Positions 5,485-54,022 of a stretch of DNA of 64,000 nt are shown here, piece by piece; the first letter of the stretch is position 1; each line of letters starts with the position of its first letter. The DNA comes from Prochlorococcus sp. MIT 0701 (lineage in GTDB: Bacteria; Cyanobacteriota; Cyanobacteriia; PCC-6307; Cyanobiaceae). Under the pieces are notes generated by a model, which worked only from the letters and a program-made list of their open reading frames with translations, searched no databases and was not told the origin of the DNA. The stretch spans positions 1-64,000 of the forward strand of contig NZ_JNBA01000030.1 of assembly GCF_000760295.1 (NCBI RefSeq). The letters run 5' to 3'. The position numbers and the translations under genes are program-made.

Positions 5485-6594
5485 TCAAGCCCCAAACTTT
5501 GACAGCCAACGGGCCACCACCTGATCCCCCCAGCAGCCTCCGATTGCATGGAAACCATTGTGGCCGCCGTGGGGTGTCAACAACACTTGGATGCGCTGCT
5601 CACTGGATGGAAACATGTTCGCTGCCAACTGTTGAGCGGCTTCTACTGGCACCCAGGGATCATCTAGCGCTTGCAGGAGCAGTGTCGGCGGCAGGCGGCT
5701 GGGGTTCTCAAGCAAGGCGATCAACGGTGAGGCGCCAGCGTAGTAAGCATCAACATCGCAATAACCCCAGCGCGGGGCTGTGATGGCAGTATCAAACTCT
5801 CGGATCGTTGCTGGCGGGCTCTGCCCCTTCTCCCCATTGAGCACTTCCCTTTCCTGGACAGTCACGCCAAAGGGATCCGCCAACGTTTGACGAATCAACC
5901 GCTGCAGCAACCAACGCTGATAAACCCTGTTGCGGGGTCGCTCGATTGAGGCACTGCAAGCCGCTAAATCAAGGGGACTACTGGTACAAACCAATCCATC
6001 CAAAACCGCTTGACCAGGCGCGCGCGCGTGGCTTGGCTCAAGACAGGCATTGAGAAGCATCGTGCCCCCAAGGGAAATACCTGCCCCAAGCAGAGGGACT
6101 GCGCCTCTCGAAGCAACACCCTCGCGCCCAAGCTGATTACAGAGCTGCCGGGCCCGTAACAACACCGGGCCAAGATCGCTATTGCACTCAGCGGCATAGG
6201 TCCCTGCTGAGAGATGCCGCCCAGGGTCTGCACCACGCAAATTCAAGCGCAGCACGGCAAAACCAGCCGTCTGAAGAGCGCAGGCCATCCGTCGTAGACC
6301 TTCACGTTGACTGGAGCCCCCCAATCCATGCAGCAGCAAAACCAAGCCACGCGCCTGGCGGGTGACTGCAGGGCGATCAAACAAAGCCAACAAATGACCC
6401 GGACCCGCCATACCGCTCGGCAAGGCAGGCACTTCAATTTCAATCGCTTGGCCTCGATCACTTGGCAAGCGCACCGGTCTGAGTGTGTCGCGAAGGGTCT
6501 GCAGATCGCCGCCTAGCCAAGGCAAACGCTGCTTAAAAAGACCAATCCCCAGCTGTTTTAAAAGCTGGGAATCGGTCTCAACCCTTCTTGCCAA
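5485..6594 (-). CDS. YheT-type alpha/beta hydrolase
   Basis: A 369-residue protein with an alpha/beta-hydrolase fold. LLLHGLGGSSQ forms the oxyanion region, GISLGGT carries the nucleophile serine, DDPWVP the acidic residue and HGGHNGF the histidine. Order and spacing match the YheT/UPF0017 family, whose physiological substrates are poorly known. No signal peptide is seen. It overlaps the end of pntB by 17 bases on the same strand and may be the last gene of the pnt transcript. Confidence 0.8.
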   Translation of the reverse strand: MARRVETDSQLLKQLGIGLFKQRLPWLGGDLQTLRDTLRPVRLPSDRGQAIEIEVPALPSGMAGPGHLLALFDRPAVTRQARGLVLLLHGLGGSSQREGLRRMACALQTAGFAVLRLNLRGADPGRHLSAGTYAAECNSDLGPVLLRARQLCNQLGREGVASRGAVPLLGAGISLGGTMLLNACLEPSHARAPGQAVLDGLVCTSSPLDLAACSASIERPRNRVYQRWLLQRLIRQTLADPFGVTVQEREVLNGEKGQSPPATIREFDTAITAPRWGYCDVDAYYAGASPLIALLENPSRLPPTLLLQALDDPWVPVEAAQQLAANMFPSSEQRIQVLLTPHGGHNGFHAIGGCWGDQVVARWLSKFGA

Positions 6595-8017
6595 TGCCGA
6601 GCTCCTTCAGTTCAACCAAAAGATCACCCAACACCTTCTTGGCATCACCAAACACCATGGAAGTATTGGCCAGTTCAAACAGATCATTCTTAATCCCTGA
6701 ATAACCGGCACTCATGCCGCGTTTGACCACAAACACCGTGCGAGCTTCCTGCACATCCAACACAGGCATGCCGTAAAGAGGGGAAGTGGTGTCAGTTTTG
6801 GCCTGGGGATTGACCACATCATTGGCTCCAAGCACCAACACCACATCAGTGGCCGGGAACTCAGGATTGATGACATCCATCTCCTTGAGCTGCTCATAAG
6901 GAACATCAGCCTCAGCCAAGAGAACGTTCATATGGCCAGGCATGCGTCCAGCAACCGGATGAATGGCATAGGTGACCTCAATGCCCCCAGCTTCCAAGAC
7001 ACGGGTAACTTCACGCAGGGTGTGCTGCGCCTGAGCCACTGCCAGGCCATATCCAGGAACAATCACAACCCGCTCTGCCGCCTCAAGGGTGAGCGCACAC
7101 TCCTCAGCGCTGCAACTGGTGATGTTTTTATATTCGCCACCGCCGCCAGAAGCAGCGCTTGCTCCTAACGCTCCACCAAACAACACCGATACCAACGAGC
7201 GATTCATACCGTTGCACATCACCTGAGTAAGGATCAGACCAGCAGCTCCAACCATGGCGCCAGCAACAATCAGCAACTGACTGCCGACAACGAAACCTGC
7301 CGCTGCCGCCGCAACACCTGAATAACTGTTCAACAGTGAGATCACCACTGGCATATCGGCGCCGCCAATCGGTAGCGTTACACCGATTCCCAACAAACCG
7401 GACCCGATCACCAACAGCCACAGCGCACTGACGTTGTCGCCATGGCGGCCAAGCTCGATGGCAGCCACTAGAGACATCACAGCCAGAGCAATATTCACGG
7501 CATGCCGAACATTGCTCTGCATCCAAGGCGGTGTTGACAGCCAGCCCTGCAGCTTTGCCATCGCCACGATTGAACCTGTAAAGGTGATCGAGCCAACAAA
7601 AACAGACACCACAATCGAGATGTCTTCAACCACTGCGCTGCCGGCTTCAACAGCTCCAGCGCCTGTCGGGAAAATTGCAACGCCGAGAGCTACCAGCAAC
7701 GACGACATGCCTCCGCAGCCGTTAAACAGAGCAACGGTCTCCGGCATGGAGGTCATCGGCACGCGCTGCGCTGTGATCGCACCGAGACATCCACCAACCA
7801 CCGTGCCGAAGATGATCCAAATCCAGGCCTCAGCAGAGATGCCGCTGGTGCCGAGATAGTTCACTATCAAGCCCACCGCGGCAAGTGCCATGGCAACAGC
7901 TGCAAGGCGATTGGCCTCACGGGCAGAGCGCACCTTCGAAAGGCCCTTGATCCCAAGGGCAAGGAGTAAAACCGCGACCAGATCAATCGCGAACTTGAGG
8001 ATCTCAGCAATATTCAT
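6578..8017 (-). CDS. pntB: NAD(P) transhydrogenase subunit beta
   Basis: Membrane and NADP(H)-binding subunit of the proton-translocating transhydrogenase, which drives NADPH formation from NADH with the proton gradient. The first half has about nine hydrophobic helices. The C-terminal third is the soluble NADP(H) domain, with VIVPGYGLAVAQAQH and the GANDVVNP motif. Its start codon abuts the stop of the upstream pntA2, giving the operon pntA-pntA2-pntB. 479 residues is typical. Confidence 0.96.
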   Translation of the reverse strand: MNIAEILKFAIDLVAVLLLALGIKGLSKVRSAREANRLAAVAMALAAVGLIVNYLGTSGISAEAWIWIIFGTVVGGCLGAITAQRVPMTSMPETVALFNGCGGMSSLLVALGVAIFPTGAGAVEAGSAVVEDISIVVSVFVGSITFTGSIVAMAKLQGWLSTPPWMQSNVRHAVNIALAVMSLVAAIELGRHGDNVSALWLLVIGSGLLGIGVTLPIGGADMPVVISLLNSYSGVAAAAAGFVVGSQLLIVAGAMVGAAGLILTQVMCNGMNRSLVSVLFGGALGASAASGGGGEYKNITSCSAEECALTLEAAERVVIVPGYGLAVAQAQHTLREVTRVLEAGGIEVTYAIHPVAGRMPGHMNVLLAEADVPYEQLKEMDVINPEFPATDVVLVLGANDVVNPQAKTDTTSPLYGMPVLDVQEARTVFVVKRGMSAGYSGIKNDLFELANTSMVFGDAKKVLGDLLVELKELGIGKKG

Positions 8018-9590: not shown

Positions 9591-10169
9591 ATGGGCCTAA
9601 CTGCAATCGAATGTCCGGATGGTGTTTGCCATAGCCATCACGGAGGCCATGCTGTGGAGCGCTCCACAATGCAGAACAACCTCCAGGGACACGGGCGAGA
9701 ATGGTGTGAACGCCTGGCAGAACGGATCTACGAGATCTCGGTGGATACCTTCTCCCAGACAGTGATGCCGAGCCTCCATTCCGCAGGATGGCAGAGACGC
9801 CATTTGGATTGGGAATTCAAGCTCGACAAACAGGAGTCAGAGCCTGACAAGGCTTTGGTAGACGGGATTATCAACGCCACCGAGAGTTTCCTACGCAGCA
9901 GTGAAGTCCACCGACTGTTCATTCAAGAACTGGTTCAGGGAACCTTTGCTGAAGCCGGTTCAGACACCCTGAGGGCATCAGCCGTTCAAAAGCTGATCGA
10001 AAACGAATTGCTCACCATGCTCAAAGAGCAAAAGGAGCAATTGCTCGATCGCTTAGCTGGTCAACTCATGGATGAGGCTCAGGGCAACTTCGAGATCGCA
10101 CACACTGCAGCAAGCGAAGGCCTCAATGAGGTTGAGCACCTGCTCGTAAACCACACCGAAGCGCTCTGA
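9591..10169 (+). CDS. Conserved-looking protein of unknown function
   Basis: A 192-residue soluble protein, mostly helical by composition, with no signal peptide or membrane segment. The N-terminus has a Cys/His cluster (CPDGVCHSHHGGH) that could bind a metal. The rest is acidic and Glu/Leu-rich (LIENELLTMLKEQKEQLLDR), suggesting helical bundles. An internal ATG at 9669 (MQNNLQGHGREWCERL) is an alternative start that would remove the Cys/His cluster. I recognise no family. It is divergent from the pnt operon and is followed by a long perfect palindrome. Confidence 0.65.
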   Translation: MGLTAIECPDGVCHSHHGGHAVERSTMQNNLQGHGREWCERLAERIYEISVDTFSQTVMPSLHSAGWQRRHLDWEFKLDKQESEPDKALVDGIINATESFLRSSEVHRLFIQELVQGTFAEAGSDTLRASAVQKLIENELLTMLKEQKEQLLDRLAGQLMDEAQGNFEIAHTAASEGLNEVEHLLVNHTEAL

Positions 10170-10198
10170 ACTCAATCAGACAATTGGTAGCAACTCCT

Positions 10199-10242
10199 GC
10201 TCCATCGCCAAGGCCTGAAGCTTCAGGCCTTGGCGATGGAGC
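10199..10242. repeat. 44-bp perfect palindrome
   Basis: The two 22-base arms are exact reverse complements with no spacer. The centre reads AAGGCCTGAAGCTTCAGGCC. It lies 30 bases after the stop of the 192-aa gene. On RNA it would fold into a very stable hairpin, but no T-run follows on either strand, so it is not a classic intrinsic terminator. It may end the upstream transcript in another way, bind a dimeric protein, or be a small repeated element. Confidence 0.9.
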
Positions 10243-10536
10243 CAGCGTGATCTCAGGATCAGCGGATCAATGTCACATTCATGTAGCCAACACTGCTCCA
10301 AGCTGCGGCGTTGCTGAAAAATAAACTGGGCTGAATGGTGGCGTTTGGCCATGGTGGCAGGGGGCCGAAAACCCCAGAAGCTCTTGATCGGAAGCTAAAG
10401 ATGCCAACAGCGAAAGGAATAGTTAGAAAGACCTATCTTCTCGTGCAATGCCATCTCCAAGCCTTCCTTTGAACTGCTGGGAGAGTCCGACCAGCCCAAA
10501 ATCCGACCCCGCATTTGGCAGCAACAGCTGATTCAG
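10243..10536. other. Interval before the helicase, includes likely uncounted 5' coding sequence
   Basis: The first part (to about 10430) shows no gene I can support. From about 10430 the helicase reading frame is open, following a TAG, and looks coding up to 10536, although it has no ATG, GTG or TTG. Confidence 0.45.
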
Positions 10537-11898
10537 TTGCTTCGTCGCCGCCTTTCTCCACGGGCAATCCAAGGGCGAGATGTGCTTGTGCATGCTGGCC
10601 CAGGTGCAGGCAAAACCCTCGGAGCCCTACTCAGCTTCCAGGCCATGCAGCGAGGGGGTGGCTTAACGCGATTCATAGTTTTTTGCCACCGCAACTCGAT
10701 TCTGAATCAATGGCACCAAGCATCTGCACAACTAGGACTCAACTTGCAGGACTGGGAAGCCTGCCCAGAAAAACCCGAGATCCTCAAACAATCAGACGGG
10801 TGGGCAGTGACCTATCAAGGTGCCGGTCTTCAGTTGGAGACCCTGATAGCAGAACTAAAGGACTGGGCCGGGGACGGCTTACTCGCTATTGCCGATGAAG
10901 CCCACCACCTCGGAATGAATCCAGATGAACCTCAGGGTCCAGCCTGGGGACGCACCTTTCTTGCTCTAACTGACAGCAGCAAAATACGGCTTGGTCTTAC
11001 TGGCACGCCATTCCGCGCCGACAATCTGGCCTTCTGTGCAGCCCGAAGGGTGCGAGTGGAAGCCGAGGGAGCTCTGGTGGAGCAGATCAGCCCAGATCTC
11101 TGCGTGGAGCCCAGTGAGCTGATTCATGCTGGAGATGTGCGCCCACTCGAATTCCGCTTCCAGGACGGCTGGGTGGAACACAGCCGTCCTGGACATCCCG
11201 ATCGAGATGTCTCCCCCCTCTCTGCTGAAGAGCGAGAAAGCTGGCGAGCACGCAATCTGCGCAGGGCTATTCGCATCTCAGATTCAAGCAGTATTGCCTT
11301 ACAACTGTTAATACGGGCACGACGTCAACTTGAGAAGGTACGTCGCCACCATCACGATGCCGCGGGCCTAGTGATCGCTAGAGATATCGAACACGCTGGT
11401 GGCATCGCCCAGCTCCTGCAAGAGGAAGGTGATCGTGTCGAGCTGGTGCACTCCCAAGACCGTGATGCCAGCGCGCGCCTGGCAGCCTTCCAAACAGGCA
11501 AAGCCGACTGGCTAGTAAGCATCGACATGTGTGCCGAGGGATTCGATGCCCCAAGACTTCGCGTGGTTGCTTATCTCACAACGGTGGTAACGCGCAGCCG
11601 ATTCATACAGGGAATCACTCGCGCTGTAAGGATCTCCACGGCAAGAGCATCGTTAGAGCCCGTACCTCGTCACCCTTCCTATGTCTTTGCACCTGCAGAT
11701 CCCTTACTGATGGGCCATGCCCGCAGCTGGTCGAAAACAGAGCCATATTTCATCAGAGACAGCGAAGCGAAAACAGAGGAAAACACAACGATGGGTCACT
11801 GGCGAGGCCCAAGCCTGCCACTAGAAGCAGTCAACGACGGAGCCGGTGCTGTCATCCGACTACGCACACCAAATCTGCCCAGTTTTTTGCAGCGTTGA
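10537..11898 (+). CDS. Superfamily 2 DEAD/DEAH-type helicase
   Basis: ATP-dependent nucleic-acid helicase or translocase with the type III restriction-subunit-like core. Motif I is GPGAGKT, motif II is DEAHHLG, motif III is LTGTPFR, and the C-terminal RecA domain ends with SIDMCAEGFDAPRL and QGITRAVR. At 453 residues it is a compact core with no obvious extra domain. The first normal start is TTG 10537, but the frame is open upstream. There it encodes PKIRPRIWQQQLIQLL, which resembles the Q-motif region just before motif I, so the true protein is probably longer. No restriction or methyltransferase partner is adjacent, so a role in repair or RNA metabolism is as likely as defence. Confidence 0.85.
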   Translation: MLRRRLSPRAIQGRDVLVHAGPGAGKTLGALLSFQAMQRGGGLTRFIVFCHRNSILNQWHQASAQLGLNLQDWEACPEKPEILKQSDGWAVTYQGAGLQLETLIAELKDWAGDGLLAIADEAHHLGMNPDEPQGPAWGRTFLALTDSSKIRLGLTGTPFRADNLAFCAARRVRVEAEGALVEQISPDLCVEPSELIHAGDVRPLEFRFQDGWVEHSRPGHPDRDVSPLSAEERESWRARNLRRAIRISDSSSIALQLLIRARRQLEKVRRHHHDAAGLVIARDIEHAGGIAQLLQEEGDRVELVHSQDRDASARLAAFQTGKADWLVSIDMCAEGFDAPRLRVVAYLTTVVTRSRFIQGITRAVRISTARASLEPVPRHPSYVFAPADPLLMGHARSWSKTEPYFIRDSEAKTEENTTMGHWRGPSLPLEAVNDGAGAVIRLRTPNLPSFLQR

Positions 11899-51970: not shown

Positions 51971-52110
51971 ATAAAGAAGTTGCAGAAAGATCTGGTCTGT
52001 TTTAGATAATGACTGGGCAAGATGTCGTTGAAAGGAGCTTAGACAATTTTTTTACATCATTCAAAAGCTTAAGATTTCACAAGGTAGATTATATCATTAT
52101 TTTTATCAAA

Positions 52111-52150
52111 GATCCCAACCCCATGACGGTGGCCTCATGAGGCTGGGATC
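52111..52150 (-). terminator. Terminator-like hairpin downstream of bicA
   Basis: GATCCCA and TGGGATC close an imperfect hairpin over 40 bases, starting about 22 bases after the bicA stop. On the minus strand it is followed by TTTGATAAAAAT. It probably ends bicA and separates it from sbtA. Confidence 0.6.
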
Positions 52151-52172
52151 TCTAATAAGTTGTCACTTACTC

Positions 52173-53891
52173 TTATAAGTCAGCCAGGGCGGCTTCAAGA
52201 GCTTGAGTTCGGTTAGTCATCAACCCTTGCACATCAAACTTCTCAAGTCTCTTGCGGACCCTCTCGTTTGAAGCAACAACATAAGCTTTCCTTGAATGTT
52301 TCTTTGCCTCTTGAACCATCTGTTCAATGGCCAAAGTTGCAGTAATGCCAAGCCGAGGAACTTCAGTAATATCAAGGATCAAAACCTTGTAATTACGTAC
52401 CAGAGCCATTCGTTCTGTGATCCCCGAAGCAGCTCCAAAGCTCAATGGTCCACGCAGACGGAATAACATCACCTGCCCGCCACAGCGATCAAGCAATGCT
52501 TGTTCTGAAGGAGGTAAAGATGGCTCTTCAGCTTTAGCCGCAGCAGCTGATTTGTTATCAACATCACCATCCATCAAACGATTATCAGCATCCATTCCTT
52601 CCAATTGAGCTTGTGTTAATGAATCAATTGTCAATAGGTTTGCGACAAAAACACCAACCAAAACTGCTGAGATTAAATCCCAGAAGACTGTCATCAGCAA
52701 GACGCCATACATGACAACAGCTGTTTTGATCGAAAGTCGATGAGCTCTAAGCAAGAAGCTCCAATCAATGATGTCGAGACCTACCTTGACCAATATTCCT
52801 GCCAGCAAGGAAGTTGGAATTAAAGCTGCGAACTGACCTGCTCCATACAAAACAATCAAAAGCACAATGGAATGCACCATTCCAGACAGTGGCGTGCTTC
52901 CCCCAGATTTGACATTGATCACCGTCCGCATCGTTGCACCGGCGCCAGGCAGTCCGTTAAATAAGCCAGATATTGAGTTGCCAATTCCTTGACCAATCAA
53001 TTCTCTGTCTGAGTTATGACGAGTTTGAGAAATGTTGTCTGCAACCAGTGATGTCAAGAGTGAATCGATTGCTCCCAACACTGCAAGCACTAAGCCTGAT
53101 TTGATGATCAAAGGTAGAAATGCTGGGTCCCAGCTGGGCAAAGAAAAGCCCAGGCCACCTTCAGGAATCGTGCCAATACGCGGTAGCTCATCGATGCCTC
53201 GGGCTGCAAGGTTCGCGTCATTGAACAGCACAACCGAAAGGGGCGTAACGATCAACAAAGCCAACAACGGTGAAGGCACCCACTCGGTGAGACGCCTAGG
53301 TGCCAAAAAGACAATGGCCAAGGTCATCACAGCCACTGCTACCGCGCCCCAGTTGGGTTGAAAGTTTGCCGACAACTGAGTCAGGCAAGCAATCACACCG
53401 CCCTTGGTTGAGATGCCAAAAAGAGGTCCAATCTGAAGAATGAGGATGATCACCCCAATCCCAGACATAAAACCAGACACCACTGAATAGGGCACAAGCG
53501 TGATGTAACGACCCAGTCGCAAGACCCCAAACAAAATTTGGAATAGACCTCCAACAACAACTGCGGCCATCACCAGGGGCAAAAGCTCGCCTGGACCATC
53601 AACCGTTGGCAACGCTGTGGAAATACCAACAGCAGCAAGAGCGGCGACAACTCCTGCCACAGTGACGCTCATCGGTCCAGTCGGGCCGCTGACCTGAGAT
53701 GGAGTACCTCCAAACAGCGCTGCGAAGAAGCCAACAATCACCGCTCCGTAGAGACCGTAGATCGCGCCTCCATCGCCAAGGGCAGCATTGCCAAATGCGA
53801 GGGCTAAAGGCAGCGCCACCACCGCAGCGGTCAATCCGCCTAATAGATCTCCGCGAACATTGCGCAGATGAAATCCATGGATTAATGCCAA
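52173..53891 (-). CDS. bicA: BicA-type SulP bicarbonate transporter
   Basis: A low-affinity, high-flux Na+-dependent bicarbonate transporter of the SLC26/SulP family. An N-terminal part with about 14 membrane spans (LLGGLTAAVVALPLALAFG, TPSQVSGPTGPMSVTVAGVV) is followed by a C-terminal STAS domain (VMLFRLRGPLSFGAASGIT, VLILDITEVPRLGITATLAI). I chose TTG 53891 because GGAG lies eight bases upstream and it gives MALIHGFHLRNVRGDLLGG, where the family begins; the frame extends to 53969. SulP sulfate transporters look similar, but the context favours bicarbonate. Confidence 0.88.
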   Translation of the reverse strand: MALIHGFHLRNVRGDLLGGLTAAVVALPLALAFGNAALGDGGAIYGLYGAVIVGFFAALFGGTPSQVSGPTGPMSVTVAGVVAALAAVGISTALPTVDGPGELLPLVMAAVVVGGLFQILFGVLRLGRYITLVPYSVVSGFMSGIGVIILILQIGPLFGISTKGGVIACLTQLSANFQPNWGAVAVAVMTLAIVFLAPRRLTEWVPSPLLALLIVTPLSVVLFNDANLAARGIDELPRIGTIPEGGLGFSLPSWDPAFLPLIIKSGLVLAVLGAIDSLLTSLVADNISQTRHNSDRELIGQGIGNSISGLFNGLPGAGATMRTVINVKSGGSTPLSGMVHSIVLLIVLYGAGQFAALIPTSLLAGILVKVGLDIIDWSFLLRAHRLSIKTAVVMYGVLLMTVFWDLISAVLVGVFVANLLTIDSLTQAQLEGMDADNRLMDGDVDNKSAAAAKAEEPSLPPSEQALLDRCGGQVMLFRLRGPLSFGAASGITERMALVRNYKVLILDITEVPRLGITATLAIEQMVQEAKKHSRKAYVVASNERVRKRLEKFDVQGLMTNRTQALEAALADL

Positions 53892-54022
53892 AACGTAGTG
53901 CTCCTGCCCACTTGACTTGAACAAAACAATATCTGGCTGGGGGCCCCTCCTGTATGGCAAGAGAGGCAATGTGTCCGGCCTCTATAACAAAAAGCTTTTC
54001 TCGATCCCGAAGAGTTTATTAA

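Follow-up and report, generated by a model that had tools for sequence, protein, structure and literature searches.

A 44-bp perfect palindrome in the codons of a small Prochlorococcus gene and the hairpin that marine cyanobacteria keep past the end of its convergent neighbour

Background

Intrinsic (Rho-independent) terminators, including bidirectional ones, place a G+C-rich stem just past the stop codon between convergent genes, and in Bacillus cereus such stems are maintained by compensatory changes that pass through G.U intermediates (PMC5381666). Strong hairpins past the stop codon that lack a U-tract are described as well, as REP-like stabilising hairpins in E. coli and as U-tract-less 3′ ends in cyanobacteria, which are without Rho and where, in S. 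elongatus, a canonical hairpin with a U-tract ends only 22% of transcription units (PMC13289151). Perfect inverted repeats of which both arms encode conserved protein are found in the mitochondrial genomes of Nematomorpha (PMC6649704), and template switching can create and maintain hairpins, with perfect arms and double-sided changes as its expected products (PMC8794818).

The subject here is a 44-bp perfect palindrome in a 64,000-nt stretch of the genome of Prochlorococcus sp. MIT 0701 (the window). It shares with intrinsic terminators the stem just past a stop codon between convergent genes, and with those of B. cereus the compensatory upkeep, but it is without a U-tract on either strand, lies in the translated codons of the opposing gene and has an unusually long perfect stem. 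With the U-tract-less ends it shares a strong hairpin past the stop and a Rho-less phylum; unlike them it is non-repetitive and overlaps antisense coding sequence, and the 3′ end that it would make is deduced from comparative sequence alone. Unlike the coding palindromes of Nematomorpha it is bacterial, single, short and associated with a convergent gene end, and nothing suggests that the genome favours such palindromes generally. It resembles hairpins maintained by template switching in its perfect arms and double-sided changes, yet no clear block-copy event is seen here and the hairpin correlates with gene arrangement. As the sequence evidence shows, the palindrome is coding, is complementary far beyond the needs of the protein, is kept by compensatory change and stands without a U-tract 29 nt past the stop codon of a 192-aa gene. 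It is the most perfect example of a hairpin that marine cyanobacteria keep past the end of this gene.

The palindrome and its genes

An earlier, sequence-only reading had described two 22-base arms with no spacer and no T-run on either side, and this description stands: the arms (10199-10220 and 10221-10242, 22 nt each) are 100% complementary and directly adjacent, T-runs are absent from both flanks, and the calling of terminator-like sites returned none at the palindrome. The eight nucleotides after the stem, CAGCGTGA on the plus and AGGAGTTG on the minus strand, do not form a U-tract. The palindrome is by far the longest perfect short-spacing inverted repeat of the window. The view that such a length is not expected by chance was borne out, as the 24-bp core, allowing up to 3 mismatches, had no match in 100 dinucleotide shuffles. 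As RNA the palindrome folds at -42 to -44 kcal/mol on either strand; the stretch containing it reaches -56 kcal/mol (z = -6.9), the strongest 60-nt fold in the window when both strands are considered. The nearest complete relative in the genome collection (G003, 2,410,873 bp) has longest perfect palindromes of 26 and 24 bp in the 400 kb searched. Within the 2.59-Mb genome the arm has no other occurrence even with 3 mismatches, the exact palindrome was not found in viral contigs, and Rfam gave no family above the gathering threshold, with sub-threshold microRNA-type matches only (the best scoring 26.9 bits where 90 is required). The proposal of a small mobile palindrome or a repeat family is refuted by this single copy, REP and mobile palindromes being multi-copy. 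The argument from instability carries little weight, as 44 bp is on the short side for a palindrome to cause inviability.

Table 1. Features at and around the palindrome (positions in the window)
Feature	Position	Strand	Remarks
192-aa conserved gene, function unknown	9591..10169	+	Convergent with the small gene
Gap between convergent stop codons, 6 nt	10170..10175	.	
Conserved small gene, 58 codons (MAKRHHSAQFIFQQRRSLEQCWLHECDIDPLILRSRWLHRQGLKLQALAMEQELLPIV)	10176..10352	-	ORF, homologues, dN/dS
44-bp perfect palindrome	10199..10242	.	RNA stem of ~20 pairs, 4-nt loop, no U-tract
Superfamily-2 helicase gene (ResIII / Helicase_C)	10537..11898	+	Divergent from the small gene; neighbour only

The palindrome had been taken to be intergenic, next to a gene of unknown function. 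The 192-aa gene does adjoin it, but a second conserved gene had been missed, and the whole palindrome is contained in this minus-strand ORF (Table 1). It spans the codons for LHRQGLK and LQALAME and one further base at either end. Its centre falls exactly on the codon boundary between AAG and CTT, so that whole codons pair with one another: CTC/GAG, CAT/ATG, CGC/GCG, CAA/TTG, GGC/GCC, CTG/CAG and AAG/CTT. Of 400 genomes of the family, 165 encode a homologue of the small protein, and an alignment search of 145 genomes of the class gave matches confined to members of the same family. Pairwise dN/dS across the complete ORF is 0.13-0.46, which indicates purifying selection on the small gene; its product, with the motif ECDIDPLILRARxLxxQGxxxxALxxEQELLPIV, has no family match in Pfam or NCBIfam. 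The sole Pfam match of the 192-aa protein is a weak, sub-threshold one to TetR_C_35, and the true start of the helicase gene may lie further upstream. Relative to the 192-aa gene the stem occupies 29-73 nt past the stop (-42.5 kcal/mol), in the manner of the G+C-rich hairpin that follows the stop in intrinsic terminators.

Other structured sequences were noted in the window. The second strongest hairpin, at 52101-52160 (-) with -38.9 kcal/mol, begins ~15 nt past the gene at 52173-53969 (-) and is followed by AAAATAATGA, which is not a U-tract. At 6521-6580 (-) a hairpin followed by TTTTT comes after the gene at 6578-8017 (-); it overlaps the called start of the ORF at 5485-6594, whose real start is probably further downstream. 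A 16-bp inverted repeat (94% complementary) lies within the helicase gene at 11159-11193, and tandem 15-bp repeats (TTGGCATTGCCTGGG) occupy the window edge at about 161-265.

Complementarity beyond the protein

The contribution of the protein was measured with a null in which the amino acids were fixed and synonymous codons were resampled with local usage. All 21 of 21 pairs are complementary in the window, against 13.0 +/- 1.7 under the null, and with this protein all seven codon pairs would be complementary with a probability of about 1e-6. The fold itself lies at z = -5.0 relative to this null on both strands, and at -2.2 to -5.0 in the four nearest relatives (G003, G001, G004 and G006), where the plus strand taken by itself gives -2.6 to -4.8. 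When G000 is compared with G006, the hairpin codons have a synonymous divergence of 0.11 and the remainder of the ORF one of 1.50, a comparison that draws on few sites.

A hairpin is also present at this site in sister species, with imperfect arms in G003 and G006 and wobble-paired arms in G001 and G004; stem differences between G003 and the window are scattered over several positions. The suggested search for the arm in the genome and in sister strains thus yielded no second copy but did yield sister hairpins, and those with imperfect or wobble-paired arms point to a 3′-end hairpin. When homologous codons of 11 narrow-gap species were aligned, 86.8% of the 20 pairs were formed, a percentage that is biased upwards because the species were picked partly for a hairpin at the same codon position; sliding the partner by 1-3 columns lowered it to 30-45%. 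Stronger evidence than the percentage comes from double-sided (compensatory) changes, which affect 7 of the 20 pairs and 21 cells among the 11 species, with pair types such as AU:5/GC:5, CG:5/UA:4 and UA:6/AU:3. The covariation score is 0.360, compared with 0.218 after shuffling, and none of 500 shuffles scored as high. The same columns are paired at 50% in wide-gap genomes and at 43% where the convergent partner is lacking. Structure is kept by compensatory change while the bases vary, as would be expected of a 3′-end hairpin without a U-tract. A hairpin that is retained in relatives while its bases change rules out both an assembly fold-back and a mobile repeat, and the former suspicion is further dispelled by homologous hairpins in independent assemblies. 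In another species (G323) an unrelated palindrome of 22 to 26 bp (CTCTTGTTCAAGC/GCTTGAACAAGAG) was observed at the small-gene coding end.

Gene arrangement and transcript strand

A convergent pair with a measurable gap is present in 60 relatives, where the strongest hairpin usually begins within about 50 nt past the 192-aa stop. With gaps of up to 20 nt this hairpin is found within the small gene, and with wider gaps mostly at the small-gene stop; the hairpin at the small-gene stop of wide-gap genomes is usually a different one (for example GTGCTGCCGGATCAAACGATCGGCAGCAC). Structure at the small-gene coding end, relative to the synonymous null, has a mean z of -2.55 for gaps of 0-20 nt (n=30), -0.52 for wider gaps (n=28) and -0.41 without a convergent partner (n=20). 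A rank test between gap classes gives p = 3e-8 but ignores relatedness; a tree built from the 192-aa protein shows about 3 independent switches of gap class, and an independent-pairs test of the association was not significant. Exceptions are G034, G005 and G323, in which the hairpins are weak, and G282, in which the hairpin is in the ORF despite a wide gap. An apparent non-correlation between hairpin position and gap came from a search range anchored on the 192-aa stop; for this reason it was not used as evidence, and a two-sided search, symmetric about both stops, was made. There the strongest hairpin was downstream of the 192-aa stop, on the small-gene side, in 29 of the 32 genomes with a gap of 20 nt or less, and within the 192-aa gene in 3 of the 32. 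A general rule that close convergent genes embed hairpins found no support in the 400 kb of sister genome that were searched: with ORFs called by a simple longest-first rule, its other narrow convergent pairs had no such hairpins, and the hairpin is therefore a property of this locus.

Several non-Watson-Crick positions in G001, G004 and G010 read as G.U on the plus strand and A.C on the minus strand, and the three stems fold at -39, -36 and -21 kcal/mol on plus against -26, -22 and -11 kcal/mol on minus. The preference for one strand is not clean: pairing across the alignment is 86.8% on plus against 81.4% on minus, and G003 and G006 lean slightly towards minus. The position of the hairpin and the G.U pattern favour a putative role in the transcript of the 192-aa gene.

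Competing explanations

The main rival, and one that needs no function, is neutral template switching (quasipalindrome correction), by which one arm would be copied and re-copied onto the other where the C-terminus of the protein happens to permit complementary codons, giving a tolerated hairpin. The high background that the protein alone allows (13 of 21 pairs under the null) agrees with this, homogenised perfect arms and double-sided changes are what such copying produces (PMC8794818), and the arms may have become perfect at any time. It leaves unexplained, however, the unrelated hairpins at the small-gene stop in wide-gap genomes, the fading of the coding hairpin where no convergent partner exists and the one-strand wobble-paired stems of G001 and G004; the hairpin also persists over several genera despite high synonymous divergence outside the stem. 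Neutral switching as the whole account is given a minority share of belief, though the largest among the alternatives. Somewhat less probable, and on balance unlikely, is a hairpin that serves the minus-strand mRNA of the small gene, by translational pausing or mRNA stabilisation, or that acts as a bidirectional barrier for both transcripts. The palindrome does fold on both strands, minus-strand folding in narrow-gap genomes exceeds the synonymous null (mean z -1.99), and in G006 and G003 the minus-strand fold is slightly the stronger one. Against these observations stand the much lower minus-strand stability in G001, G004 and G010 and the location of the stem in translated codons; when the gap is wide, the small-gene stop lies within the hairpin, which a ribosome terminating there would open, and the hairpin still comes after the 192-aa stop.

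Long perfect dyad symmetry is what a protein-binding operator, a mobile palindrome or an assembly fold-back would present, but a single copy, pairing that is conserved while the sequence is not, and the hairpins of independent assemblies make all three very improbable. Pure coding coincidence deserves next to no credence: the codons of L/E, H/M, R/A, Q/L, G/A, L/Q and K/L can all be complementary, yet in its simple form this explanation is disfavoured by the synonymous null, with its P of about 1e-6 given the protein, and by the covariation in relatives.

A putative 3′-end hairpin in antisense codons

The preferred reading, held at a probability of roughly 0.55 from comparative analysis, is that the palindrome would act as the 3′-end RNA hairpin of the plus-strand 192-aa gene, written antisense to the final codons of the small gene because the two stops are only 6 nt apart. 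RNA polymerase on the plus strand would pass the 192-aa stop, and the hairpin, starting 29 nt beyond it, would be clear of the terminating ribosome, leaving ribosome-free RNA to fold into a stem of ~20 bp. This stem would stop or pause the polymerase, block 3′-5′ exonucleases, or do both, and so fix the 3′ end of the mRNA. On the small-gene mRNA the same stem would lie in translated codons, where ribosomes would prevent it from closing; the element would then work in one direction despite its symmetric sequence. Template switching between the arms may have brought them to perfection here, and may occasionally re-make near-perfect arms.

Among the possibilities first listed for the palindrome, selection and a transcription stop fare best in the light of the sister hairpins; what is missing is the U-tract, and the element is therefore not a canonical intrinsic terminator. 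Nor does the label of an ordinary terminator suit its relatives, as a U-tract (at least 5 T in 8) follows the hairpin in 1 of 60 and is missing in 59 of 60. That such a dual-coded, U-tract-less hairpin might be a genuine noncanonical terminator of Rho-less marine cyanobacteria, its direction set by translation, is a more doubtful proposition.

Significance

For cyanobacteria, which have no Rho, the way in which most transcripts end is still to be worked out (PMC13289151). The locus reveals a small conserved gene outside the Pfam and NCBIfam families and is a clean bacterial case of a long perfect palindrome tolerated within conserved codons. It also offers a concrete, evolutionarily replicated hairpin without a U-tract, whose synonymous sites can be recoded with both proteins unchanged, so that termination, 3′-end protection and neutral template switching are separable by experiment.
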